A stretch of 64,000 nucleotides of DNA from NCBI GenBank assembly GCA_963575745.1, contig CAUYUJ010009402.1:107956-171955 (forward strand), given 5' to 3'. This DNA is from Prorocentrum cordatum (lineage: Eukaryota > Sar > Dinophyceae > Prorocentrales > Prorocentraceae). Both the position numbers and the translations under genes were made by a program. A model generated the notes under the pieces. It was not told where the DNA came from. It did no database searches and was given only the letters and a program-made list of their open reading frames with translations. This document shows, one piece after another, positions 3,258 to 63,724 of this stretch. Numbering within the stretch: position 1 is the stretch's first letter; each line of letters starts with the position of its first letter.

Positions 3258-3415
3258 AGCATCCACGTGAGCTGTTGAAGTTCCGCGCGGATTTCTGGGA
3301 TCGGCGCTGGGCCCGTTGGCGCCTCCTATGGCGCGCTCCGCGCGCCTGGAGAGGAAGGTCGAGCGCGGATTCAAGAAGTCTGCGCGGACCTCCAACAACT
3401 TATGTTTATTCTGCA
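3258..3415. mobile_element. Foldback (MITE-like) element FB, copy 1
   Basis: The left arm contains CCGCGCGGATTTCTGGGATC and the right arm its near reverse complement, GATTCAAGAAGTCTGCGCGG. The centre GGCGCGCTCCGCGCGCC-like block is also self-complementary, so the whole unit can fold into one long hairpin. The outer flank includes AACTTATGTTTATTC, shared with other copies. It has no coding capacity. Confidence 0.75.
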
Positions 3416-3793: not shown

Positions 3794-3956
3794 GATCATT
3801 GGATACGATGTGTTTTTCGGTCGCGATCGATAGTGACCGATCGGCACTCCAAATTGGTAGCGACCGATTTGTCGCGACCGATACCGAAATTCGAAGCAAA
3901 ATCGGTCGCGACCGTTCTCGTCGGTTTCGCTTGGAAAATTCCAGTATCCAGTGATC
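3794..3956. mobile_element. MITE-like element 'GATCAYTGGATAC', copy 1
   Basis: Terminal inverted repeats GATCATTGGATAC (3794) and GTATCCAGTGATC (to 3956) bound a 163-bp unit packed with variants of GGTCGCGACCGATC. Similar units occur at 15633-15876 and 59556-59726. Confidence 0.75.
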
Positions 3957-4059
3957 GGGGTAGGACCACCCCCTGGGACGCCCCCAATCCCCTGCGGGGG
4001 AGGGGGACCGCGCCCTGGGGGCAAACGGGGCAAATTTTCCAAGAGAGAGGTGCTCTCTC

Positions 4060-7847: not shown

Positions 7848-8061
7848 TTCGGTAGCAAGTCATGGGAGCCTGGTATACCCTCGTTATTTAGTCTTTCGCG
7901 TCGACTAGCGTCGATGAGCGTCTGGAAGCTGATGATATAGCAACGATTTAGCGTCGGTTAGCGTCGACCAGCGTTTGTTTAGCGTCGATGAGTGTCGACT
8001 AGCGTCGATTAGTGTCGATTCGCAAGGGCCGACAAGGTGGCTGTCATGAGTTGCCACCGAA
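7848..8061. mobile_element. Introner-like TIR element, intergenic copy
   Basis: The left end TTCGGTAGCAAGTCATGGGA is mirrored by a right end that reads TCATGAGTTGCCACCGAA. The interior is made of AGCGTCGATTAGCGTCGA-like repeats. The same ends and the same interior make up intron 1 of the GH31 gene (about 14586-14828), so this is a copy of that sequence outside a recognised gene. Confidence 0.8.
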
Positions 8062-8587: not shown

Positions 8588-8625
8588 CACACACACATAT
8601 ATATATATATATACACACAAGGACA
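8588..8625. repeat. CA/TA dinucleotide microsatellite
   Basis: ACACACAC, then a TATATATA run, then ACACAC. It directly precedes an FB foldback copy. Confidence 0.9.
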
Positions 8626-8627
8626 TA

Positions 8628-8766
8628 CACACCAACTTTTGGCGCTCCGCGGGAATTTCTGGGATCCGCGCTGGGGGCCCCCCTGGCGCGCTCCGCGCGC
8701 CAGGGAGGGGGGTCCCGCGCAGATCCAAGAAATCCGTGCGGAGCGCCACCAGTTTATGTTCATTCC
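8628..8766. mobile_element. Foldback element FB, copy 2
   Basis: Left arm TTTTGGCGCTCCGCGGGAAT, right arm GATCCAAGAAATCCGTGCGG followed by AGCGCCACCAGTTTATGTTC. The central GGCGCGCTCCGCGCGCC is itself a perfect hairpin. Confidence 0.85.
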
Positions 8767-10080: not shown

Positions 10081-10737
10081 GGCTGGCGGGCTCTGGCCAT
10101 ACAGCTTGGGTAACGATACGTATGTTATGAGGTGGTTGTCTAGGCCTTTAAGATGGTGTCTGAGTTGATGAGGTCGGTTGATCGCGCCGCACAGCGGATG
10201 CTTCGCCGATGCGGTTCGATGTAGAGACCGATTTTTGTCCACGTTGGCGTCGCCGATGCATCGCCGACGCCGCCGACGCATCCTCGATGTATTGGCGGTG
10301 TGGTGCTACCATTTAATTCTATTTGCTCGGAATCCATTTGGGAGGCCTCTCTAATTGCATGGTCTGACCGGACGCAGGCCTCTCAAGTAGGAAGGCGATC
10401 GACTACAGAATTGATTTACCCCAAAACTTGAACTGTTCATCGGATCACCTAAAACATTTCTGATTTGCCCCAGAACGTTCGTAGATCTGCAGACTCGACG
10501 AAGAAACAATACGGCTACATCAATTTTGCAGTCGGTCTCCTACTCGAGCCTCTGCGCCTCGTCTCCAGCAGCGCCGCCTCGAACCGGGCCTTCGTGTAAG
10601 CCCTGCCGCCTGCGGCACAGCGCGCCCCTCGTCGAAGGGCGCTCTGCGGAGTGTCTTGTTGCCGCCGTGCCCTGCGCTAACAGGGCCTCAGGCTGCGGGC
10701 GTCTCTGCATGGCACCATGGCGCTTCGACTATTCAGG
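10081..10737. other. No gene seen
   Basis: Apart from a short GATGC/GCCGACGCC-rich patch near 10240-10285, this stretch shows no repeat or coding pattern that I can support. Confidence 0.4.
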
Positions 10738-11400
10738 GACCATTTCGATCCGATCGATCCGATTTGATGCCGATTTCGGCTGGCCCGATTTGATTCGACT
10801 TAGCTATTTCGGCCATCCGTTGCGGCCCGATGCTTGCGTGATGCTGTTGTGAGTCTTTACGCAGCCGATCCGATTCGATTTCGACTTCGTGCCGATGCAG
10901 CCTGACCCGACGCACATGTCGATTCGATCCGATTTCCCGATTCGTTGCTGACAGTGCGCCGAGTGAAGTGCCCCATGGCTCCTTCCTCTTGCAGGAGTAT
11001 AGCGGGGATAATCCCCATGAGAATTCTCCGATCTGACGGAATTGGGCAAGACAGAGGGGATGGAGGGGAGGAAAGGGGGCCATTCACGCCACGACCTGCG
11101 CTGGCGCCGCGCGGGAATGCGTAGGAATGGCGAATTCCCAGACGGCGCCGACGCGAATCGTGATGTGACCAGGGCAGGGCTCATTTCGATTTTTCCGATT
11201 CGACTCGATTCGATTTCGATGGATTTCGATTCCGATTCAATTCGATTTCGGATTCCGATTTGGGATCCGATTTCACAATCGAGGCCTACTAGCGTGCCTA
11301 TGTCTACCGATTCGTCTTTTCCCGACTCGGCTGCCGATGTCCGCCGATCCGATTCATTTCGATCGCCGATCCCACTTATCGATTCGATTCTGGGTTCTCC
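10738..11400. repeat. GATTCGATTTCGATCC-type short tandem repeat, interrupted
   Basis: Variants of CGATTCGATTTC recur through 10738-10960 and again through 11185-11395, separated by about 220 bases of unique sequence. Confidence 0.75.
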
Positions 11401-13430: not shown

Positions 13431-14268
13431 GAAGGGGGGGTCTCAATTAGCGCCGCCCCCCCCCTAAGAGGCCGAAATGAAGCCAAAACCCAAGTAAAAC
13501 CAATGAGTTTGGTTTCCTCGCCGAGGCCGTCTTGGACGCTCTGGCGACCCGCGGAACGCCCCCTCCAGGTCCAGTGGAGGAGGTAAGGGGAGGGGTAAAC
13601 CCCTCCCCGAAGGGGAAGAAGGGGGTGGAAGAGGAAACACCCTGAACCACCTACGCCCTAAAGGGCTGGTGGGATTCAGGGTATTCCGTGGTCTGGGCCC
13701 TTGAGAACACCTTCATCCACCCTTCAGAACTGCATGCGCCTTGGGCACATTCCAGTTTGTGCTGAAGGCCCCGAGGGCGGTATTGCGCATGCCTCACGGC
13801 TGGTGCCGCCAAACTTGTGCGCAACGGGCAGCAGGAGACATTCACAGCGGGATATTGAGCAGGAGCAGGAGGAGTAGGAGGAACCCATATTTTAGCATAC
13901 CCGCTGTTTCGGCCCTCGGAGCGTACAAGGTAACTAACCAGCCCCCAAACGTCGCCCCAATACGGATTGAAACGGCTTGAAGAGAGCGGCAAGAGCGCCC
14001 CGAGAGTGCCCCCTATGGTTCCAAGACGGCCCAACGGAGCCGCATGAGGTCTCAAGGGGCCCCCCTGAAGGCTTCGAAACTTCCGAAGAGAGACCCATGG
14101 CAGCCCACGGGAACCCCATGCCATGACAGCTCAATGAAGGAGCCGTGTCCGTTTTGGTTCAAGCCATTTGGGCTTGAGAAATCTGGAGCTGTCTCGAAAC
14201 GTGACCGCCGACACCCAGAGAGAGAGAGAGCGAGAGAGAAAGGCAGGGAGAGAGAGGGCGCCCACGAG
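13431..14268 (+). other. Upstream region of the GH31 gene
   Basis: No separate gene is supported. A GA-rich run (14215-14258) ends 11 bases before the chosen ATG. The frame is open back to 14044 without an obvious start context, so the 5' UTR boundary and the spliced-leader acceptor site cannot be placed from sequence. I did not find a spliced-leader relic here. Confidence 0.4.
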
Positions 14269-16590
14269 ATGCGGACCGTCCGCGCCATCGCTGCGTGCCT
14301 CCTCCTGGCAGAGCATGCTGCTGCGACCGACGAGGGCAGCTCCGACGAGGGCGGAGGCGGCGAGAGCCCTGCGATGCCCGCGTGCGATGGAAGTTCCTGC
14401 ACCGTGGGCGACTACCGGGTGCAGGCGCTATCCCCCATCCTGCTCCGCGTGGAGCCGAAGGGCCCCAACGGCTTCGAGGACCGCACCACCTTCATGGTGG
14501 TGAACCGCGGCGGCTTCGAGGGGCTCGAGCTGAAGCCAGACAAGAAAGGGCTGATGAAGACCGACCACTACAGCGTTCAGGCTTCGTTCGGTGACAAATC
14601 ATAGGAGCCTGGCATACTCTCTGAATTCCGTCTTTCGCATCGATCAGCGTCGATTAGCGTCTGGAGTCGACGAAATAGCGCCGATTTAGCGTCGGCCAGC
14701 TTCGATTAGCGTCGACTTAGCGTCGATTAGCATCGATTTAGCGTCGCTGAGCATCGATTTAGCGTCGATTCGCAAGTGCCGACAAGATGGTATGGGAGGC
14801 TCCCATGAGTTGCTACCGAAGGTCTCAGACGGGGCGGTCCTGGTGTGGGATGCCGACGGCAACGAGTTGTACAACTCCGAGGCGTACCCTGCCTGGAACA
14901 AGCTGCACTGGCCATCGCCTCAATCGAGTGCTGGCTACGCGATCATGGACCACCCTCGGTTCTTTATGCCCGATTGGAAGGTTGCACCCGCTTCCGCAGA
15001 GGATGGGGGCCCGAACAATGGCTATGATTTCAGCAACGACGTCGAGGGCGACACATATAGAATGGCCTGCGGCCGATCCCGCCACCGTGCCTGGGGCGTC
15101 GATGCATCTGGGGGGCCCCTTGAAGGGCTCTCGCGGGCCTCTTGGGGCCTCACAGGGGCCTCCTGGGAGCCTCCTGAAAGCTTCTTGGGGGCCTTTAGGG
15201 GGTCTCTCGGGGCCTGCTGACGGTCTTTGGGATCATTGTGGGGCGGAGGGCTCGAAATGCCAGTCCGTGTTCCTCATGGAGCCTTCTGGCGGCGTATTGG
15301 GGGCCTCTTGGGCCATTTCGTCTTGGGGCGTGTCTCGGGAGACTCTCCACGGCTCGTGGGGCTGCTGTGTGCGGGCCCACCGTCCCGGAGACTCACCACG
15401 CCCACGTCCCACGCGCGCCCTTGAAACAATCCTGGAAGTTGGTGGGGACGGGCTGTGAAAAACCTACAGCCCAGATCATTCAGGAACGCAAGAAGGACGT
15501 ACACGTACACGAATCCAGGTGGGTTTCGAGAGTACGCATTGCGCGAACGTTCGTATCACGCGGCCGGTCTCGCGGATTGGGGGACCGTGTTCATGTATGT
15601 GCGTGGGCGCGCACGTCCTTCGTGGGCCCCCTAATCATTGAATACAACATTTTGTTCGGTCGCGATCGGTAGCGACTGGTCGGCACTTTAAATCGGTCGC
15701 AGCCGATCGCGGCCGACCCCGGAATCGGTCGCGTCTGGTCGCCACCGATTGGTCGCGACCAATCGGTCGCGACCAATTTTGAAGCAAATCAGGTGCGACC
15801 GCTGCCGAAATGTAAAGCAAAGTCGATAGCGACCGTTCTGGTCGGTCGCGACTGGGACATTCTAGGATCCAGTGAACATGGTACTCTTCGACCTCTCACA
15901 GTTGTATGAGCCTTGAGACAGTTCACTACGTGCTGACGGCGTGGTGGCGGATATCTTCTTGATGGGGAAGGGCGTCGAGGGTTGGAGCGCTGCACGCCAG
16001 GAGTTCTTCAAATTGTCGGGACCGGTTCCTCTCCTTCCCGACTGGGGCTTCGGCACGTGGTTCACGTGGTGGAACTTCTACACGGAGGACGCGGCGAAGT
16101 CGGAGGTCCAGCGCTGGATCGACGACAAGGTGCCGCTCGATGTCTGGGGACTTGACATGAACTGGCGCCTGATAGAGAATGATGCTGATCGGCAGTATGA
16201 TCAGCCCAATGGCTCCGCTTTCCCGGACTACGAAGAGTGGTTCTCAGGAGGGGGAACACATACAGGCAGAATTAATCGTCGATTCCCCCGGAAAAAATGG
16301 GAAAATATGGGCAGTGGGGGGAAGACGAAAACCCAGAACATATGACAAAATATGGGGAATCTCGGGATTTGTGTGTGTGTGTGTGTGTTTGTGTGCGTGT
16401 CCCTGGCCCCCTTCAGGTTCCGCTGGCTCGACGAGCGTGGCGTCCACACCTACTTTAACGACCACCCGTGGCAGGTGGCCCCCCAGACGACGCCCGACGA
16501 GGTGAACTTCCGCTGGAGTTCATGGGCCGAGTCTCCACCACCACCACCACCATTGGAAAGAGAGGGAGGAGGACGAGGGAGGAGGAGGGG

Positions 16591-16622
<32 letters not shown>

Positions 16623-18540
16623 CGAGGAGGAGGAAGATGAGGCGGAGGAGGAGGAGGCGGAGGAGGAGGAGGAGGACAACCACTGCATTCGGTAGTGTTG
16701 GTGGAACTTGGCCCATCAGGAATGGTCTGACCTCGTGGATGGGAAAAGGGCTCTCGTTCTGGTGGTTTGACCACAACTGGAAATTTTCGATTCCGCCTCC
16801 GAACGCCGATCCTCCCGCTGTCTCTGGGGTAACTGCAAATTCGGAGTGGGAGGGCCTCACCACCTCTTGCTGGGGGTCGCACGTGTACTACACAATCGCA
16901 GAGCAGTATAACAAAAATAACCGTCCAGACGACAAGTTCCATGGCGGGCGCCCCATTATTCTGTCAATGCAGGCTCCGCACAATGAGATCAGTGGGTACA
17001 ATATCGCCGGAAACCCTCTCGTCGAAGGCGCCATAGCGGCGCCTCTCGATCCAATGCTGATGGCCGAGCACCCTGCACACCACCGCTACCCTGTTTGGTG
17101 GAACGGCGACTTCGCAACCATGAACAACAATCTGGAGGCGATGGTGGACGGAGGAGTCCACGACCTCAAGCCCTACGTTCATCCCGACTGTGGCGGCGAC
17201 GGCTGGTTCACCACGGCGGTCGAGCTTCTGCGCCAGACCCAGATGTGCGCGTTCGGCACGATCCTGCGCTTCCACGGGGGACCTCACCAGCCGTGGATCT
17301 ACGGGGACTGGTGGGAGGGCGTCGTGCGCCACTACATCGTGTACCGCTACATGTTCATGCCGATGATCATCGCCGGTGGCCAGCGGGCCACCCAGACGGG
17401 CTTCCCGTTTGTGGCGCGGTGCGACCTTTACTGGCCAGAACACTGGGAGTCCAGCCAGTCCAACCACCAGTTCATGTTCCTTGACGACATCCTTGTTGCG
17501 CCCATTTTTGATTCCAGCGCCGAAACCGTTACGAGGGATGTTTGGATTCCGCCAGGTGCGTGGCAGGATGCTTGGAGTGGGGAAATCGTGTATGGGCCAG
17601 CGGATCAGAGCGTTGAGCAGCCAATGGAGCGGTTACCAATGTGGATCAGGGTGGATGGCGGCATGCTCATTTGGACTGACAAGCCAGGTCTCACCGTCGC
17701 AGACGGCGATTGGTCAACCCTGGTTGTTGAGGTCTGGCCTTGCCCGCGGGCTCACAAGACGTCGCGGACGATTTACGAGCGCAGTACCGAAGAATATCCG
17801 CCAAGCCAGGACGTCACATTGTCCACAAGTGGTAAGGGTACAGCGACTATCGAAATGACCAAGTCCGATGTCGAGCGTGCCTGGGTGGTCCGTGTGAACT
17901 TGCTTGTTGGCCAGATCGTTGTCAACGCGAGCGTTGACGGCAAGCCAGCAGAGACCAAGTTGTACGAGCCTAACCCGAATGACGATGGCCTCATGAATGA
18001 CGACGGTGGCTATTGGCCGTTTGGGGGCGAGGGAAGTGCACCCGCATCGAAGGCTGGGAACGTTGTAGAACTCAAGATGCCGGCAGGCACCAGCGAACGC
18101 AAGGTTCAGAGGAGGAAAATGCACCCATACCGCTATCCTTCCCTCGTTTTCCCCCTGTGGGGCCTCCTGGGAGGCCCTCGCTGCCATGGCTACATTCGCC
18201 TCGAAATTCCGGTCAGAACGCACCGTTGGAGAGGTCCAGAGAGTAGTGGCATGGGTACTTGTTGGTTTCCCCAAAGGTGGAGATTGTCATTGGTGATGCA
18301 GCGAAGCCGACGACCAAGCCGAAGCCGACGACCAAGCCGAAGTCAAAACCGAAATCTAAGCGGCAGGAGGGCAACAAGAGTGCGAAGCCGAAGGCCATGG
18401 CGGCACCCGAGCACGGAAAGAGGGCGAACACGAAGACGAGGCCGGCCTCGAAGCACGGGCAGAAGTCGAAAATGGAGACGATGCCCGCCTCAAACAAGAC
18501 TCCGCCGGTGATCATTGCCTCGCAGCTCCCGGATCGGGGG
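14269..18540 (+). CDS. Glycoside hydrolase family 31 (alpha-glucosidase-like), six or more exons
   Basis: Exons, using inverted-repeat boundaries: 14269-14585, 14821-15058, 15953-16239, 16417-16518, 16723-18103, 18277-about 18540. They total 2589 nt (863 codons) in one frame. The ATG starts a signal-peptide-like MRTVRAIAACLLLAEHAAA. An N-terminal GH31 beta domain follows (PTFxVVNR-like TTFMVVNRGG), then the barrel with LLPDWGFGTWFTWW, LDVWGLDMNWR and VHTYFNDHP. FWWFDHNW supplies the expected nucleophile Asp (about residue 331), and RYPVWWNGDF holds an Asp (about 444) at the usual acid/base position. RFHGGPHQPW and FLDDILVAPI also fit the family. GH31 enzymes hydrolyse terminal alpha-glycosidic bonds; substrate cannot be told. 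The C-terminal 88 residues are Lys/Pro/Thr-rich. The 3' end is uncertain: the frame runs into a foldback element and stops at 18738, or splices onward. Confidence 0.88.
14586..14820 (+). mobile_element. GH31 intron 1, introner-like TIR element
   Basis: The left end TTCGGTGACAAATCATAGGA and the right end TCCCATGAGTTGCTACCGAA are inverted repeats matching at about 19 of 23 positions. The interior is AGCGTCGATT repeats, as in the intergenic copies at 7848 and 8185. Two in-frame readings exist: cut at the TIR ends (giving QASVSDGAV), or GT-AG at 14591-14828 (giving QASFDGAV). Confidence 0.8.
15059..15952 (+). other. GH31 intron 2 with a CTTGGGGCC minisatellite and a MITE inside
   Basis: Cutting at 15059-15952 (ambiguous over a 3-base ATA repeat) joins NDVEGDTY to IFLMGKG, the form expected in GH31 proteins, but the ends are not GT-AG. 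A GT-AG reading (15087-15917) also keeps frame and adds about 20 residues. Near the ends, CCCGCCACCGTGCC and GGCGTGGTGGCGGAT are imperfect inverted repeats. Inside are CTTGGGGCC units (about 15100-15330) and a MITE (15633-15876). Confidence 0.65.
15633..15876. mobile_element. MITE-like element 'GATCAYTGGATAC', copy 2
   Basis: The left end AATCATTGAATAC and the right end GGATCCAGTGA are diverged versions of the family TIR. The interior is rich in GGTCGCGACC variants. It sits inside GH31 intron 2. Confidence 0.65.
16240..16416 (+). other. GH31 intron 3 (GT-AG, 177 bp)
   Basis: The donor GTTCTCAGG and the acceptor CCCCCTTCAG join EEW to FRWLDERG. The exon bases GTTC repeat on both sides of the intron, like a 4-base target duplication. 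TCAGGAGGGGG near the left end and CCCCCTTCAG at the right end are short inverted repeats. A GTGTGTGT run lies near 16371-16390. Confidence 0.75.
16519..16722 (+). mobile_element. GH31 intron 4, TIR element with a GAG expansion
   Basis: The left end reads ATGGGCCGAGTCTCCACCAC and the right end is the reverse complement of ATGGGCCAAGTTCCACCAAC, so about 25 bp of inverted repeat enclose a GAG-rich core (16557-16675). Cutting at the TIR ends gives FRWSGLTSWM, the usual GH31 form. A GT-AG reading (16531-16719) is also in frame and gives FRWSSWAENGLTSWM. Confidence 0.75.
18104..18276 (+). other. GH31 intron 5 (GT-AG, 173 bp) with inverted ends
   Basis: The donor AAG/GTTCAG and the acceptor CCCCAAAG/GTG join ERK to VEIVIGDAA. 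AAGGT occurs at both junctions. Near the ends, ACCCATACCGCTATCC (left) pairs imperfectly with the reverse complement of GAGTAGTGGCATGGGT (right). Confidence 0.75.
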
Positions 18541-18727
18541 GGCCGAAATTCGAACGCCATATACATAAACGTTTGGCGCTCCGCGCGCATTTCTTGGATC
18601 CGTGCTGTGCCCCCCAGCGGGGCCTCCAGCGCCGCCCCTGGCTCGCTCCGCGCGCCAGGGAGGGGTGTCCAGCACCGATCCGAGAAATCCGCGCGAACCT
18701 TGGAGTTTTCATGTTTATGTCGTTCTT
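18541..18727. mobile_element. Foldback element FB, copy 3, at the GH31 3' end
   Basis: The left arm TTGGCGCTCCGCGCGCATTT and the right arm CGATCCGAGAAATCCGCGCG flank a GGCGCC-rich centre. The outer flanks CATAAACG and CATGTTTATG are also inverted. It follows directly after the last recognisable GH31 codons, so it is either a read-through insertion or a further intron. Confidence 0.8.
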
Positions 18728-19234
18728 CGTCCGCCTAGAAATTGGTAGTTATGGAAACGCCGGGCAGAACACGTCCATCAGCAGTCCTGGCGCATTCCGA
18801 TCAGGACTCGCTGGCGGCGTCGCTGTCTGCCCAGCAGCGGCCGCTGTCGGTTTTGGACAACACCTGTTGTTGAGCATTGTGTCCGTCTTTTCCGTACAGA
18901 TGAGGCCCATGCCAGGAAACACCTTGCTTGCCTCCAGGCTGCCCTGGGTTTCTTGGGCTTCGATGGTTTTGCTGTGGAGAGCGCGACGTTCCCGCACCAA
19001 CAAATCCATGGACGTCCTGAGATCTCAGGGTTGGGCTTCTTGTGGAAGGTTTCTTGTGGACTGGGTTCCACTGTACGGCAGGTTCGCGTCGTGTCTGCCA
19101 GCGGCGACCCCAGCGCGCGCGTTTACGGTTGAACGCCGCCCGTGGCCCAGAATCGGCCCGTCGTTGAACGATCCGGCTTTAATGGAACGGCCGATCGTCC
19201 AAGTTTGAACGATCCCCGCAGTGTCAGGAGCAAC
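18728..19234. other. No gene firmly seen between GH31 and the GAG tracts
   Basis: Open frames exist but none shows recognisable domains. A further small GH31 exon could be hidden here. Confidence 0.35.
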
Positions 19235-19452
19235 GCCAGGGGGAGGAGGAGGAGGAGGAGGAGGAGGAGGAGGAGGAGGAGGAGGAGGAGGAGGAGGAGG
19301 AGGAGGAGGAGGAGAGGAGGAGGAGGAGGAGGAGGAGGAGGAGGAGATGCAGGAGGAGGAGAAGGGAGGAGGGAGGAGGAGGAGGAGGAGAGGAGGAGGA
19401 GGAGGAGGAGGAGGAGGAGGAGGGAGGAGGAGGGAGGAGGAAGAGGAGGAGG
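19235..19452 (+). repeat. GGA/GAG trinucleotide tract
   Basis: Near-pure (GGA)n with a few one-base breaks. Confidence 0.97.
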
Positions 19453-19490
19453 AGACGACGCGAACCTGTTGTAACCATTTCGGGCGCCCC

Positions 19491-19675
19491 AGCCCGAGGA
19501 GGCCGCGCCGCAGCTGTCCCGGCAGGGCACGGCGGCGGCGGCGGCCGCGGCGGGCACCGGCGGGTGCCTGCTTGCCGCGCTGGCGCTCGCCGGTGTGGCC
19601 GCGCGCTCGGTGCCTCGCGGGCACCGCCCAAAGCGGTGCAGTGACGACACCGAGTGCCATCACTCGGCGGCGAGT
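19491..19675 (+). other. Possible small exon with one hydrophobic segment
   Basis: After an AG acceptor-like CCCCAG the frame reads PEEAAPQLSRQGT, a poly-Ala stretch, then GGCLLAALALAGVAARS, which could be a membrane segment or part of a transit peptide, and ends in the Glu-rich repeat. A stop lies just upstream (19472). It may be a terminal exon of GH31 or a relic. The phrase AAGCGGTGCAGTGACG inside it recurs at about 43638. Confidence 0.25.
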
Positions 19676-30742: not shown

Positions 30743-30937
30743 GGGGAACGAGCAATGACATAGACATAACAACTCAGAGGCCCGCGCGGATTTCTCGGAT
30801 CCGCGCTGGAGGCCCCTGGCGGCGCCTCCGGCGCCCCCCTTGGCGCGCTCCACGCGCCAGGGAGGGGGGTCCAGCGCCGATCCGAGAAATCCGCGCGGAC
30901 CTCAGATTTCTACGTTTATGCCATTTCTCGTTCCCCT
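30743..30937. mobile_element. Foldback element FB, copy 4 (clearest ends)
   Basis: The outer left GGGGAACGAGCAATGACATA and the outer right TATGCCATTTCTCGTTCCCC are near-perfect inverted repeats. The inner arms GCGCGGATTTCTCGGATCCG and GATCCGAGAAATCCGCGCGG are perfect over 19 bp. The copy lies between the non-LTR element and the 5' LTR and gives the best estimate of the family's full length (about 195 bp). Confidence 0.9.
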
Positions 30938-31250: not shown

Positions 31251-33269
31251 ATGTCGGAGGCGCCGCCCGGTGAGGTTCCAGACGACGTAGAGGGAGCTGA
31301 AGGCCTGGGCGAGACCAGTCCCGCGGCGCTGCAGCCAGCGCTGTCCGCGATGTCAATCGAGGACTTCGGGAAGTTAGTCAAGCAGTTGGTGCGCGAGGAG
31401 CTTCGAGGGCATGACAGAGGTGCGGACCGATCACTAGCTCTCGCGCCCCGGGTCGAAGATCGGTCAGTGCGAGCAGAGCCTGCAGGGTGTGTTAATCAGG
31501 ATCACGGGTGGCAGCCAGCCTCAGCGTGGGGAGGTTGGCATACTCACCCGTGGCGAGATCCAGCAGGCGATGCTCAAGGTGATAGGTGGAAGGGGCAGCC
31601 CAGTGGAGATCCTTGGCATGACGACGGCAGAGACCCTTGGACAGGGGACTACGGTAACACGGACGCCACGCCACACCACGCAGAACAGCAGTGGAAACAG
31701 GACACGTGGGGCTCCTATGGCAGCAGTTGCACACCAGGCTGGTGGCAACAGGGCGCCGGCAAGCGAGGAGACTTCACGGATCCAGAAGCGTGGATGGGCT
31801 GGCCCGACTATAGGCTGTGGAAGAGGAAGGTGTTGAGGTGGTCGAGGGCCACAGACGTAATTCCCTCTAACAGGGCAGATCGGGTATTCAAGGTGTTTGA
31901 TGCCGACTTGCAGCGCAAGCTCGAGTGCATCACGGACGAGCAGCTCATCAGCGGCGTAGAGCACGTGCTCCGCCAGCTCGATCTCCTCTCCGGAGGAAAG
32001 CCTGATGACGAGCGCGGGCAGACCGCACGGGAATGTTTGTTCAAGTACCAGAGGCGCAACGCGGAGACGTTGACGTCCTTCGCGGCTCGTCTGGATCACC
32101 AGTTCGACAGGATAACCACTCAGGGGCTCGCCATGCTTGACGAGTGGAAGGCCCTCTTCCTCGAGGAGGGCGCGGCCCTGGACGACGCCAGCCTGCGCCT
32201 CATCCGCGTGCTCACCAAGGGCGACGCATCATACTCGGCGATGCTGGCAGCGATCCGGGAACTCGACATCACCAAGAAGGATACCATGGTAGGGGCCAGG
32301 CGAACGATGATGACGCACGGTGATTCCGCGCCCTCGTCCTATCCCCCGGAGTCACAGGAAGATTTGTTGAGCTGCGAGGGCGTCTCTTCCCTGGACACGG
32401 ACACGGAGTATGCGCTGCTTGACGCAATCGAGCAGAAGGACCTGGGCGAGGCCGGCTTTCCGATTGCGCTGGCAACCGCGCAGGCGGATCGCCGTAAGGC
32501 GTGGCGCCAGGACAGAGAGCTGAAGCGGAAGCTCAAGACGGACCGGCGATATTTTCAGCGCAGTGCGCCTGGGCAGAGCTCAGGAGATCGACCACGGAAA
32601 GCAGACGGACACTTCAGTGCACACGGTCAGCAGCGAGACCGCAAGGCCCGCCTTCCATTATCCGAGATCATCAAGCGGCCGAAGTGCAGGACCTGCCAGC
32701 CGAAGGGCCACTGGGGAGACGAATGTCCAAACAAGAGCAGCGCGGCCGTTGCCCAGAGGCAGACCGGGGCGACCAGGCCGCAGCAGAGCCCCGCGATCAC
32801 GGGCTTCTGCTACACGAATGAGCAGGAGGAGGCGTTCCTCCTGGGCGCGCCCATGCCGCAGAGCACGAAGGAGACGGCTCTCGTGGCCAGCCGGGGCATC
32901 GAGGCATGCCTTCATCGAGGCGTGGTCCCGCAGGCAACCACGGGCACCAGCCCCGGCCGACTGCGAGCCCCGCTGGGGGCTGCGGTCCTCGACGCGGCTG
33001 CGGGCCAGGGGCTGATCGACGCGGGCGACCTCGCCTTGCTGGGCGAGCGCCCCCAGCAGTTGGGCCACGCGGTCGCGCGCGTGCCCGCCCGCCATGCCTC
33101 AGCAGGAGGCGTCGGGGGCAAGACAGAAGTGCTCTCGACAACTCTGATCCCGACGGGCATCGAGGAAGCACATGGCGTTTTAGAGGTAGATGTGATTGAG
33201 AAGGATCTTCCTGGGCTTTTTGCCCGTCCTTCTTCTCGCGGCCCCCGGGGCTGTAGTACATCTACCTAA
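31251..33269 (+). CDS. Copia gag and aspartic protease (672 aa frame)
   Basis: The longest intact ORF of the element. Residues 1-150 are acidic and Trp/Gly-rich. WPDYRLWKRKVLRW and the following 200 helical residues resemble copia gag capsid (UBN2-like). CRTCQPKGHWGDEC (32685-32726) is a CX2CX4HX4C zinc knuckle for RNA binding. AAVLDAAAGQGLID (about 32980-33020) fits the dinoflagellate copia protease active site, where the usual DTG/DSG is replaced by DAA, and GIEEAHGVLEVDVI follows as the protease C-terminal block. ATG at 31251 is the first Met, 83 bp after the LTR. After the stop at 33269 the coding potential goes on in another frame (AELFSPPSGHP, 33300-33330). Confidence 0.85.
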   Translation: MSEAPPGEVPDDVEGAEGLGETSPAALQPALSAMSIEDFGKLVKQLVREELRGHDRGADRSLALAPRVEDRSVRAEPAGCVNQDHGWQPASAWGGWHTHPWRDPAGDAQGDRWKGQPSGDPWHDDGRDPWTGDYGNTDATPHHAEQQWKQDTWGSYGSSCTPGWWQQGAGKRGDFTDPEAWMGWPDYRLWKRKVLRWSRATDVIPSNRADRVFKVFDADLQRKLECITDEQLISGVEHVLRQLDLLSGGKPDDERGQTARECLFKYQRRNAETLTSFAARLDHQFDRITTQGLAMLDEWKALFLEEGAALDDASLRLIRVLTKGDASYSAMLAAIRELDITKKDTMVGARRTMMTHGDSAPSSYPPESQEDLLSCEGVSSLDTDTEYALLDAIEQKDLGEAGFPIALATAQADRRKAWRQDRELKRKLKTDRRYFQRSAPGQSSGDRPRKADGHFSAHGQQRDRKARLPLSEIIKRPKCRTCQPKGHWGDECPNKSSAAVAQRQTGATRPQQSPAITGFCYTNEQEEAFLLGAPMPQSTKETALVASRGIEACLHRGVVPQATTGTSPGRLRAPLGAAVLDAAAGQGLIDAGDLALLGERPQQLGHAVARVPARHASAGGVGGKTEVLSTTLIPTGIEEAHGVLEVDVIEKDLPGLFARPSSRGPRGCSTST

Positions 33270-43734: not shown

Positions 43735-43935
43735 GAGAGAAAACCGCCGAAACGTAAACTTTTGGCGCTCCGCGCAGATTTCTTTGAGCCGCGCTGGGCC
43801 CCACCCCCCACCCCCTGGAGGCGCCTCCGGCGCCGCCCGTGGCCCGCTCCGCGCGCCTGGGAGGGGGGCCCGGCGCCGATCCAAGCATTCTGCGCGGAGC
43901 CCCAACAGTTTCTGCTTACGAAGCTCTTTTTCAAA
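43735..43935. mobile_element. Foldback element FB, copy 5
   Basis: The left arm TTTTGGCGCTCCGCGCAGAT and the right arm ATTCTGCGCGGAGCCCCAAC surround a GGCGCCTCCGGCGCC hairpin. The outer flanks ACCGCCGAAACGTAAAC and TTCTGCTTACGAAGC are imperfect inverted repeats. Confidence 0.85.
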
Positions 43936-51067: not shown

Positions 51068-51240
51068 CTGCAAAAGCATAAACCTTCTGAGCTCCGCGCG
51101 GAGCTCTTGGATCGGAGCTGGGCCCGCCTCGCGGCGCCTCCGGCGCCGCCTCGGGAGCGGCCCGCTCGCCAGAGAGGGCCCAGGAGTCCAGCGGGGATCC
51201 GAGAAATCCGCGCGGAGCTCCGAAAGTTTCCAATCATGCA
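51068..51240. mobile_element. Foldback element FB, copy 6
   Basis: The left GAGCTCCGCGCGGAGCTCTT and the right GATCCGAGAAATCCGCGCGG with GAGCTCCGAAAG flank GGCGCCTCCGGCGCC. The outer flank AAGCATAAACCTTC matches the family. Confidence 0.8.
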
Positions 51241-52639
51241 GTTGTGGCCAATGCTAATTTGCGCCCGCCTAGACTGTAAGGGTAGGGCTCAGCACCATCT
51301 TGGGCGCTCCAGGAAGGCTTTCGTCCTTGAGGTATCGAGAGGTTCTCCCCTCTTCCTCGCCAGCAGGAGGCAGAGCCCAAGAGAGAGAGCGTTTAAGTGT
51401 GATCCCCCGGCTCGTCACAGTCGTTACCCGGGCCAACTCCCCCCCCTAGGTAACGGTAACAATCGTCAGTCGGGCTGGGTGGGTTTTTTTGGCATGCTGG
51501 TGCTCGCGCGCATACTTCGGCGGCGATCGCAGTGCACCCCCGTCCCGACGTGCCCCACCCTGCCCAAGCGTTAACGTGACCCGCCCCCCCAGGGTAACCG
51601 CCGTTACGGGAAATATAGTTACACCAGAGAAAATACCCAATCAGTGGCTGGTTTTGGACGATCTGTGATCGATGATGAGCTCGATCGTGGGATCTGGAAA
51701 TCGGCCCAGAACCAGGAACCGGGAACCCGGGAACCCGGGAACCCAGCCGGCTACCGACATCGCCCGGGTCTTTCGCCGAATTTTTCCACACCTGCTAGGG
51801 GACTCTCTCAGTGCAGTCACGGATGGCGGAACGAATCAGCACTTCAGAGATGCCGGAGCACCTCTGGATCTGAGCCTTCTGGAGCGGGCCAAAACCGCTG
51901 GGCTTCTCGACTCCCCGGCGACCTCTCCGGCGAGGCCGGCCCAGCGACCCAGAGACCCTGGCGATCAGACGCGGTGTTCAAGCCGGCGGCCGCGGCGGCG
52001 GCGGGTCAGCTGCCGCCCCGCGGCGCGCGGTGCGTCTCGCCAGCAGAGGCTGAGAGCGCGCGCAATCGCAGGCTTACATGCGTACGGTCGCGGCGCCATG
52101 CAGGGCATGTTCCAATGGATGTGATGGGCCCATTCTCCACCACCAGTGCCACAGGGAGGACGGAGGAGAACTGAGCATGGGGAGGTCCTCCTCCATTTAC
52201 GTTAGACTGAGATTGGGTGTGATGCCTGTTGCGTTCTAGGTCTTCCTCCTCCTTCTCCTCCTCCTCCTCCCTCTCCTGGATATGGTAGTGGTGGTGGAGA
52301 GTCGGCCTCTCATGAACGATCCGATTCGCCGATCCGACTTCCCGATTCGATCCTGACTGATCCTGCCATGGCGCCGTGGCCAACCAGGGGCGGCACCGTG
52401 CAAAGCTACGCGCGTGCGTCTGCCCATCAATAGTTTGTCTCCGCTCCTGGGGCATTTTTTCTCGCTTCCGGGTCCAAAGGGTCCAATGGTGGCTTGGTGG
52501 AATTCTAATTCTTAGATCGAAGGCACTCCAGAACGCCTCTTCCGATCCGAGCAAGAGGAGGAGCGTGTTCGAAGAGTCTGTATGGAAAAAGAAGAATGAT
52601 GCGAATAGAAGAAACAAACGAAGACGATACATAATTACA
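51241..52639. other. No gene seen
   Basis: GGTAACGG-type phrases near 51420-51610 are partly inverted. GGGAACCCGGGAACCC is repeated near 51720-51742. No domain recognised. Confidence 0.4.
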
Positions 52640-54875: not shown

Positions 54876-55714
54876 AGTCAGCTCCTAGAACAGCCACCTT
54901 TTCTAAGAACAGTTCGTGGCAGGCCGATAGGAATGCTGGATCGGTCGGTCTTCTGTTCGAAAGGTGGAAGGGTGATTCTCGACCATGAGCGTGACCCCTC
55001 GCGGCAGTGACCTTTCGTGTGGGTCCAGAAAGGTCTCCCCTGGCCTACGTGCGTGGACCTCTCCCCCGCGACGCCCTGAGGCCGCGCACCAAAACTCGGG
55101 GGACTCGTGCCCGTGGGCGGGATCCGCCCGATGGCCACAAATCGTCGCCGGTGAGGGCTCCTGCAGCTTCTGAAGGAGCGGCGCCGGAGGGCGCACCATT
55201 GAGCGGAGTGGCCCTTAACCAGCTCGACGTGGCCCGCGATTCACGACCTACGTGAGTTTGCCTGCGCCCTGGGGGAGGGGGAGGGGGAGGAGAAGGGGGA
55301 GAGGGAGAGGGAGGAGGAGGAGGAGGAGGAGGAGGAGGAGGAGGAGGAGGAGGAGGAGGAGGAGGAGGAGGAGGAGGAGGAGCAGTGTAAATCCAAGAGT
55401 CATCAACGATGTTGGAATTCACCGTCCCTGAAGCTTCCTCTTCATAGGCCCCCATTGAGGGAACTGCCTCGTTAGAAGACAACCGTTTGAAGATCCTTAA
55501 GCATGCCAAAAAATGGCTCTCGGGATTTCAACGCCACGTATCAACCTGACTGCTGCGTCTTGACGATCCGGAATCGTGCCAGAGCGCCATTGTTAGGACT
55601 TCAACACCGCGGACCAGCAGAATTGTTGCACCCGGATAGCCCTGAATTTTCCAAATTATAATTTCTGGTACGCTGGTCATGTGAATCCGTGAAATGCTTT
55701 CAAAGTTTGAAAAC
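54876..55714. other. No gene seen; GAG tract at about 55262-55382
   Basis: Between 55262 and 55382 there is a GGA/GAG run. The rest shows no coding signal. Confidence 0.6.
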
Positions 55715-56215
55715 AATTGCGCGCGGCGCTAAGGCAAGAGCTATATTTTGAAAAGAAACCACCCTCAATTCTTGAAGCTCTTCCTATTTCTTAAAACGAA
55801 TGTGCGCGGCGCTAAGGCGAGATCCACATGTTGAAAACGACCCGCCCTCAATCCGTGAAACTTTTGAAATGTCTTAAAAAGCCGGCGCTTAGGCTAGAGC
55901 CACATTTTGAAAACGACCCGCCCTCCATCTGTGAAGCTCTTGCAATTCGTTAGAGCGAATGTGCGCGGCGCTTAGGCGAGAGCCACATGTTGAAAACGAC
56001 CCGCCCTCAATCCTTGAAACACTTTTGCAATTTTTTAGCACCGATTGCGCTCGGCGCTTAGGCGAGAGCCACATTTTGAAAACGACCCGCCCTCCATCTG
56101 TGACACTCTTGCACTTTGTTAGAGCGAATGCGCGCGGCGCTTAGGCGAGAGCTACAGTTTGAAAACGACCCGCCCTCCATCTGTGAAACTGCTGTCACTT
56201 TTTTGTTTCAGAGCC
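55715..56215. repeat. 82-bp tandem array, about six units
   Basis: Each unit has GCGCGGCGCTTAGGCGAGAG, then CCACATTTTGAAAACGACCC and GCCCTCCATCTGTGAA. Spacing of the first phrase is 80-85 bp. Units differ at many positions, so the array is old. Confidence 0.9.
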
Positions 56216-56309
56216 ATACGTGGTGAGGAAGTCTTAGGCGAGACGCCCGATCCGCCCTAAAATTTGGCCTCGGGGTTCGACATGGAGTTTTCTAGAAGGA
56301 GAAGAAATG

Positions 56310-56960
56310 GAGGAGGAGGAGGAGGAGGAAAAGGAGAAGGAGGAGAAGGAGGAGGCGGAGGAGGAGGAGGAGGAAGGGGAGGAGGAGGAGGAGGAGGAGG
56401 AGGAGGAGGAGAGGAGGAGGAGGAGGAGGAGGAGGAGGAGGAGGAGGAGGAGGAGGAGGAGGAGGAGTCCCGCGTCCTGCGTCCTGCCATAGGGGCGGCG
56501 CTACGGCGAACGCGCAGGCTGGTACTGTGCTGGCAGGCAGGGCCTAATCACCCAGCCCTTGAGGAAGGGTGGGAGGAGGAGGGGGAATCATAGGAGGAGA
56601 AGGAGGAGGAGGAGGAAGAGGAGGAGGAGAAGGAGGAAGAAGAAGACGAGGAGGAGGAGGATGAGGAGTAGGAAGGTGATGACGAGGACTTCAGGGAAAC
56701 GACGAGGAGGAGGGCGAGGCCGAGCAGGAAAGGGAGGAGGAGCAGGAGGAGGGGGACTACGACGATGAGAACGACGACAAGGGCCAGGATGATGATGAAA
56801 ACGAAGACGAGGACCAGGAGAGAAGTACGAACAACAGAGCGGAGGAAGAGGAAGAGGAGGGGGAGGAGGAGGAGGAGGAGGAGACCAGGGTCGACGAGGA
56901 GTGGTGGGTAAAAAGGAGGAGGCGTCGGATGAGGAGGAGGAGGACCAGCCTCTCTCGAGG
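56310..56960 (+). repeat. GAG/GGA purine tract
   Basis: Two pure runs (about 56310-56465 and 56590-56900, with ACGAGGA variants) separated by about 90 bases of unique sequence. Confidence 0.93.
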
Positions 56961-59555: not shown

Positions 59556-59726
59556 GAGCATTGGATTCGTACCGAATGTTTGCGGTCGCGATCGGCAGCG
59601 ACCGATCTGCGCTCGAGATCGGTCCCGACCGATTGATCGCGACCGACCGATCCCGACATTTAAATCAAAATCGATAGCGACCGTTCTCGTCGGTCGCGAC
59701 TATAACATTCCAGTAATCAACGATCA
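59556..59726. mobile_element. MITE-like element 'GATCAYTGGATAC', copy 3
   Basis: Left GAGCATTGGATTC, interior CGGTCGCGATCGGCAGCGAC, right ATTCCAGTAATCAACGATC. The ends are more diverged than in copy 1. Confidence 0.6.
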
Positions 59727-63048: not shown

Positions 63049-63724
63049 GTGGCCAAGTGAGGGCTCGTGCGGATTGCCACTCGCTGGCATATTGTAGTGG
63101 CCTTCGGCCAGTGCCGCCGATCCGGGGTGCTCGGACTGATGTGATCATCCTTCGCCCTCGTCCCTCCTCTCTTTTCCCTTCCTTCCCCCTCTCAGTCCGC
63201 ATTTATCCATTGGCCTTCGGCCTATCCCGCCACCGTGCGTGGGTGGTGGGTCAGAGGCCTCATGGACGCTGGTTGTGATCTCGTGGTTGGCTGGGACCTC
63301 TGGGGGCTTCTTGGGGGCCTCTTGGGGCTTCTTGGGGGCCTCTTGGGCCTCTTGGGGCCACTTGGGAGCCTCTTGGGGGGTGTCTTGGGGGTCTCTTGGG
63401 GCTTCTTGGGGGCCTCTTCTGGGCCCCTTGGGGCCTCTCGGAGGCCTCTTCGGAGCTTCTTGGTTCGGGAGGGGTGGTACTCGAGTTCGGAACCCCCTCT
63501 GAGGCCACGATCCTTGTGAGGGGTGGCAAAAAACGCTCCCACCCCGCATCCGCCGGAAACTCGCACCCCCCCCCCCTACCCCCCCTTCCCCGGCAGAGCC
63601 ACCCCGGCAACCCCCCCAGAGGCTTAGGCTCAGCCTCGAGGCTGTAGCTGAGACTCCTTGAAACTCACACGCCGGATCGGTGGCCAAGTGAGGGCTCGTG
63701 CGGATTGCCACTCGCTGGCATATT
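63049..63724. mobile_element. Insertion bounded by 45-bp perfect direct repeats
   Basis: 63049-63093 and 63680-63724 are identical (GTGGCCAAGTGAGGGCTCGT and on to GGCATATT). The 586 bp between contain a CTTGGGGCC minisatellite with the left edge CCGCCACCGTGCGTGGGTGG seen at the other loci. Confidence 0.8.

Follow-up and report, generated by a model that had tools for sequence, protein, structure and literature searches.

The GH31 gene and its introns

The window analysed here is a 64,000-nt stretch of the red-tide dinoflagellate Prorocentrum cordatum (contig CAUYUJ010009402.1), and our subject is a gene on its forward strand, starting at position 14269, that is interrupted by introns resembling transposon insertions. 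Its predicted product is classed as GH31 alpha-glucosidase-like, exon 5 matching Pfam PF01055 and PF21365 above the gathering score. We refer to this copy as W and to five close paralogs from the same P. cordatum genome (assembly searched, 4.13 Gb) as PA (contig C16522), PB (C7469), PC (C14311), PD (C20555) and PE (C6781). Intron junctions were placed first from homologous proteins and confirmed via empty sites in the paralogs; inverted repeats were not maximised to place them.

Exon 1 (14269-14580), supported by homologs and continuous with exon 2 in all five paralogs, is followed by intron 1 (14581-14821; predicted GC-AG), which contains an element, TTCGGT..ACCGAA (14587-14820), of a genome-wide family with a 37-nt terminal inverted repeat (TIR) and a 6-bp target-site duplication (TSD). 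Exons 2 (14822-15059), 3 (15954-16239) and 4 (16417-16515), each delimited by homologs and paralogs, enclose intron 2 (15060-15953), a composite insert with an ATA repeat at its junction, and intron 3 (16240-16416; predicted GT-AG), an element TCAGGAGG..CCCTTCA with the TSD GGTTC. Intron 4 (16516-16719; predicted GA-AG) is an element T(G/C)ATGGGCC..GGCCCATCA with a GGA-rich interior; exon 5 (16720-18103) would encode the end of the TIM barrel and the C-terminal domain; and intron 5 (18104-18276; predicted GT-AG) is an element TCAGAGGAGG..TTTCCCCA with the TSD AAGGT. All exons of W are open.

The initial annotation, which ended at 18540, counted five introns. All five are bounded by paralog empty sites, and the gene appears to hold at least six: an exon beginning at 19499 has nucleotide matches in four of the five paralogs (PA, PB, PC and PE; none listed in PD), so the gene runs past 18540, with a probable sixth intron (18532-19498; GA-AG) between exon 6 (18277-18531, end inferred) and exon 7 (19499-19640, provisional 3' end). 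Between the matches to these two exons, PB has 8 nt and PA 47 nt. Intron 6 holds a miniature inverted-repeat transposable element (MITE) with CATAAAC TIRs (18563-18718), which has relatives at 30782-30931, 43752-43896, 51077-51214, 8624-8740 and 3282-3391.

Empty sites and independent insertions among the paralogs

In alignments to an intron-free version of W, all five paralogs run without a break through the sites of introns 1, 2, 4 and 5, and four of them do so at the intron-3 site, the exception being PB, which carries a 1033-bp insert at the identical GGTTC. This is the only site used twice, and the inserts of W and PB do not match each other. None of the five inserts of W occurs in any of the five paralogs, and they are therefore not old introns at positions conserved in the family. 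PC has no intron across its whole frame of 994 codons. The remaining copies bear inserts of their own: one in PA (TSD AAAGG), two in PD (TSDs AAGGT/AAGAT and CAAGG) and, in exon 1 of PE, a member of the intron-5 family (TSD GAGGC; L085:3770-3965, reverse complement of the locus), which is the one case of gene-splitting by another copy of a family found in W. Counted across exons 1-5 plus the intron-5 site, the six copies thus hold ten insertions. The intron-5 family has accordingly entered two paralogs of one gene, W and PE, at different sites. Two paralog inserts also have relatives in the window: the 1033-bp insert of PB has an almost complete copy (78%) at 55342-56344, and the intron in PD exon 5 has a copy (74%) at 10734-10952.

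An exon-5 tree of W and PA-PD (PE not in the tree) places W and PA as sisters (support 100/100). Synonymous divergence (dS) between these copies in exon 5 is 0.52-0.64, and the ten insertions counted above for exons 1-5 plus the intron-5 site therefore arose within that divergence.

If the introns were ancestral, the paralogs would have lost them through retroposed spliced mRNA. The spliced-leader relics described below do suggest retroposition, and the intron-free frame of PC would fit such a loss; but PA, PB, PD and PE each carry their own inserts, W shares no insert with its sister PA, introns 1, 3, 4 and 5 combine multi-copy transposon structure with TSDs, and the targets are duplicated at the insert sites and single at the empty ones. 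We regard ancestral introns as very unlikely.

Introns 1, 3, 4 and 5 as members of repeat families

The initial annotation proposed that the gene had been split by several unrelated element families. This holds for introns 1, 3, 4 and 5, which we assign by sequence similarity to one multi-copy family each, all four distinct and with conserved ends, recovered when the genome was searched with the intron; it does not extend to intron 2, a composite with no end-to-end copy among the 40 candidates scored. For introns 1, 3 and 5, the match to other copies covers almost the whole element; for intron 4, copies are recognised by their paired inverted ends. In the searches with introns 1, 3 and 5, 40 candidates were scored of 4944, 3930 and 4114 first-look candidates, respectively, and copy numbers are consequently lower bounds.

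Intron 1 has at least 35 further copies at 81-86% identity among 44 listed matches, the other nine being the window itself and eight paralog exon matches. For intron 3, the 41 listed rows comprise the window, one fragment and 39 others at 80-86%, of which 28 begin by position 10 and reach at least 173 of 177, while nine end between 148 and 161. Intron 5 has at least 39 further matches (82-85%), all beginning by position 8 and reaching at least 166 of 173. Most of the 69 rows for intron 4 reflect the GGA repeat alone; 11 start in positions 1-9 and two reach 203-204, and in 10 of these thirteen loci both inverted ends are present within 6 mismatches. Second copies lie in the window itself, for the intron-1 element at 7848-8061 on the forward strand (73% over query 6-240) and for the intron-4 element at about 52122-52315, a TIR pair with approximate limits. 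Open reading frames of the window near these copies, at 7.8 and 52.1 kb, have low codon-usage scores.

Inverted ends

Inverted ends had been claimed for all five introns, and the claim stands in part. With P values from shuffles and from random placement in the window, respectively, the ends are strong in intron 1 (28/36 nt; P 0.001/0.003) and intron 4 (23/27 nt; P 0.001/0.002), modest and subterminal in intron 5 (15/20 nt, beginning 12-13 nt inside; P 0.017/0.044) and marginal in intron 2 (11/13 nt, near-terminal; P 0.05/0.07). In intron 3 the best match, 9/10 nt in a CA/TG stretch, is no better than chance (P 0.33/0.19). Pairing of the ends in predicted RNA folds, under the same two nulls, gave 0.007/0.010 for intron 1, 0.013/0.066 for intron 4 and 0.010/0.017 for intron 5, and was not significant on its own for intron 3 (0.176/0.169) or intron 2 (0.149/0.158). 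Jointly, the five introns exceed chance, as the initial annotation had implied: the observed 98 pairs were reached by 0/20,000 resamplings (P about 5e-5), and introns 2, 3 and 5 by themselves gave P about 0.006. End pairing was taken as the measure because whole-fold energies were mixed across introns (z -2.82 for intron 1, -1.86 for intron 3, -0.45 for intron 4, 0.09 for intron 5 and, from 20 shuffles, -9.65 for intron 2). With exact inverted-repeat matching, only intron 2 of the five reaches 8 nt although the other four are repeat-family insertions; among 3000 random intervals, about 2% attain that length as well.

Family consensuses, built from the other copies, gave a 37-nt TIR for intron 1 (32/37 matching, counted from the alignment), a 21-nt subterminal repeat for intron 5 (20/21 matching) and, for intron 3, the CA/TG match only and no true TIR. 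The inverted ends of intron 3 were accordingly rejected. Excluding the window introns, the 95% null inverted-end score was exceeded by 21/21 family copies for intron 1, 24/27 for intron 3 and 28/29 for intron 5, and the 99% score by 19/21, 5/27 and 13/29, respectively. Short length, high copy number and inverted ends, terminal in introns 1 and 4 and subterminal in intron 5, are features that place these elements among MITEs.

One could also suppose that old introns were invaded by repeats and that their inverted ends are fortuitous. The chance-level ends of intron 3, the abundance of repeats and the frequency of direct repeats at splice-like sites are in keeping with this; in introns 1, 3 and 5, however, the repeat spans junction to junction, and the sites are empty in paralogs with matching TSDs, so that we consider invasion of old introns extremely unlikely.

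Target-site duplications and the origin of splice sites

The direct repeats at introns 1-5 of W are AGG, ATA, GGTTC, GGA and AAGGT; those reported earlier for introns 2, 3 and 5 recur as described or longer. Among 4297 random splice-like intervals, 48% have a direct repeat of at least 3 nt and 9.8% one of at least 5 nt, and direct repeats were for that reason rejected as stand-alone evidence. Boundary offsets and lengths were instead varied over full-length rows of each family, counting the window's own introns, retaining duplicates (L023/L024 and L025/L026 with identical flanks, L064/L086 from the same locus) and dropping one intron-1 and one intron-3 row that were not full length. Exact 5-bp TSDs were found in 18/28 rows of the intron-3 family (expected 0.033) and 12/30 of the intron-5 family (expected 0.036). 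The intron-1 family has an exact 6-bp TSD in 5/22 rows (expected 0.007) and the last four bases of it in 11/22. With ends set 2 nt outside the inverted ends, three of the 13 intron-4 loci (L120, L124 and L127) have an exact 5-bp TSD, three others retain four of five bases and seven have three or fewer. The short direct repeats are best read as TSDs of 5-6 bp, partly decayed; where decay affects introns 1 and 4, the known empty sites identify the 3' TSD copy as the ancestral one.

GG occurs in 9/10 exonic TSDs, all but that of intron 2 (scored by eye, 5' copies being counted too), against 7/27 distinct TSDs from copies of the intron-3 and intron-5 families at other places, after removal of duplicates and of the window's own introns (Fisher P 0.0007; 0.0015 without PB); the comparison is indicative, since the exonic set includes other families. 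Selection for spliceability would predict such an excess in exons.

Most predicted splice sites fall inside a duplicated (A)G|G target. The donor would begin at the G of that target and take its next base from the target or the element, which accounts for the occurrence of GT, GC and GA donors alike. According to the available part of a P. cordatum study, donors in this species are GT in 24.7%, GC in 51.4% and GA in 23.8% of cases (PMC10666404).

Spliced-leader relics

Upstream of its ATG, W has a putative spliced-leader relic (14143-14178, forward strand) consisting of a degenerate leader followed by a truncated relic, with a score of 22 against the dinoflagellate spliced leader (DinoSL). Scores for the paralogs are 24 in PA, 22 in PB, 19 in PC and, scored apart from the run of W and PA-PD, 24 in PE; among 400 random 400-bp pieces of the window, 95% scored 16 or less and the largest value was 22. 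In the available text of two dinoflagellate studies, leader relics mark genes that have passed through mRNA, and intron-bearing retrogenes are known (PMC6050394, PMC12014239). The relics suggest that the GH31 gene was retroposed, and hence intronless, before introners split it again. The tandem arrangement at 14143-14178 further suggests more than one round of retroposition.

A probable origin: a retroposed gene split by transposons

We consider it very probable that several unrelated, small, non-autonomous DNA transposons, that is, MITE-like introners, inserted independently into an intronless retroposed GH31 copy and divided it. The computed basis comprises the family membership of introns 1, 3, 4 and 5, the TSDs of their families, the empty sites in the paralogs and the frame-perfect removal of the inserts; splicing itself, the source of transposase and retroposition as the cause of intronlessness are what we infer. 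The observation in the initial annotation is to that extent borne out in part, and its introner interpretation is supported.

Mechanistically, a trans-spliced mRNA would have been retroposed to yield a GH31 copy without introns, and each subsequent transposon insertion would have duplicated 5-6 bp of exon. At an (A)G|G target, the donor (GT, GC or GA) would owe its first base, or both, to the upstream copy, and the acceptor AG would lie within the downstream duplicate (AAG|GT, GAG|GC) or be composed of the terminal A of the element and the G of the target (..TTCA+G, ..ATCA+G, ..CGAA+G). Splicing at these sites would give back the ancestral exon with its length unchanged.

Several observations weigh against this account. 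The PB insert lacks an AG at its 3' junction, and at intron 2 both an AG acceptor and a GG target are missing. The TSDs of W are imperfect at intron 4 (5' GGAGT versus 3' GGAAT, one mismatch) and decayed at intron 1 (GGCTTCG versus GGTCTC). An exact TSD is lacking in many family copies, and GG is absent from many TSDs elsewhere, which indicates general MITEs rather than introners specialised for genes. The exon-3 inserts of PA and PD, although at different sites, are alike over 141 nt (72%). The leader score of PD, 14, is not above chance, and the other relics may have been inherited from one event, in which case they are not independent. Finally, no near-identical protein was found for the W copy, the top matches standing at 80-81%.

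Intron 2 and the integrity of the gene

Intron 2 is a precisely bounded composite insert: its exact removal gives GDTYIFLMG, as in the P. cordatum protein P0002, and no placement within the ATA repeat yields G[TCA]-AG. A canonical reading through a GACAG acceptor, constructed by hand, was rejected because it produces either a stop or an insertion missing from the aligned homologs. No end-to-end copy was found among 40 scored of 5871 candidates, which matched inner repeats only (about 421-573 and 575-823 of the intron). The first of these corresponds to a repeat at 15480-15632 and the second to a nested TIR element at 15634-15882, both on the forward strand; relatives of the 5' end of the intron occur at window position 63211 and, more weakly, 11879. 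Copies of the nested element recur in the window (3795-3962 and 59583-59713) and in large numbers across the genome, where contig C1979 holds a cluster of at least eight.

Intron 2 may be spliced non-canonically, or it may disrupt the gene. It would fit the features of Amoebophrya introner elements, with an 8-nt exact inverted repeat (11/13) near both ends and the ATA direct repeat, and hairpin-guided non-canonical splicing of the kind proposed for those elements is conceivable. The near-terminal 13-nt inverted repeat closes the predicted RNA fold of strongly negative z noted above, canonical dinucleotides are absent and GDTYIFLMG is restored exactly; against this, the inverted repeat is marginal (P 0.05-0.07), end pairing alone reaches about 0.15, and the available text on P. 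cordatum reports donors as GT, GC or GA (PMC10666404), which leaves hairpin-guided removal improbable. Slightly more doubtful still is a broader proposal, in which a core dinoflagellate would remove intron 2 exactly without a donor-acceptor pair, a terminal hairpin joining the ends, and a cycle of retroposition and introner gain would then let signal-less inserts persist in exons.

Alternatively, MITEs, intron 2 at the least, could have broken W, which would then not be a spliced gene. The missing acceptor of intron 2 and the lack of a close protein for W would agree with this, as would the private exon-5 changes, whose nonsynonymous:synonymous counts are 15.5:20.5 in W against 7:21 in PA and 2:25 in PB. 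The counts in PC (16:24) and PD (14:18), however, resemble those of W; exon-5 dN/dS is 0.12-0.20 in four pairs with W (PE left out), every exon of W is open and all exonic inserts other than intron 2 lie in GG targets. A broken gene is therefore possible but unlikely, and for introns 1, 3, 4 and 5 we retain insertion of MITE-like introners into a retroposed gene.

Relation to known introners

Introners in dinoflagellates, P. cordatum included, and splice sites derived from TSDs are already known. Roy et al. 2023 reportedly treat dinoflagellate introners in species other than P. cordatum. In its available text, Gozashti et al. 2022 describe introners as multi-copy, non-autonomous, intron-making elements, many with TIRs and/or TSDs, whose splice sites are drawn wholly or partly from the TSD, not every family having TSDs; their example from Symbiodinium microadriaticum combines a 4-bp TSD with a TIR (PMC9860276). 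Compared with that text, the GH31 gene differs in its 5-6 bp TSDs, its GT, GC and GA donors, the number of families that this single gene contains, at least four, and the empty sites of five paralogs from the same genome. The available description of P. cordatum introner elements, in which introns are enriched in inverted repeats near both ends (PMC10666404), is close to ours in species, in inverted repeats near the ends and in donors. Amoebophrya introner elements, as far as the available text goes, have inverted repeats, direct repeats of 3-5 nt and non-canonical ends (PMC7789003); intron 2 resembles them, whereas introns 1, 3, 4 and 5 differ in their GT/GC/GA-AG ends. With the dinoflagellate retrogenes of the partly available studies cited above (PMC6050394, PMC12014239), the family shares a leader relic upstream of the ATG, and it differs in that one can trace, copy by copy, how identified transposons split a probably retroposed family again. 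We noticed no worked example of such re-splitting in a retroposed paralog family among the introner and retroposition literature consulted, which was mostly open-access.

The mechanism is thus of a known kind, and the six-copy natural experiment is unusually clear. Views on where introns come from often rest on distant comparisons; in this gene, six copies from one genome present ten insertions with empty sites, TSDs and several source families. The steps from transposon to intron become directly testable, including which exon targets survive, where splice sites originate and how retroposition resets intron count.

In searches beyond the assembly, the end pattern of intron 1 had no match in viral_contigs or genome_contigs, and the paralog protein P0002 had no relative in viral_contigs. 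Elsewhere in the window, an open frame at 31587-32906, without a Pfam match, shows 84% identity over 44% of its length to a P. cordatum protein without a name.

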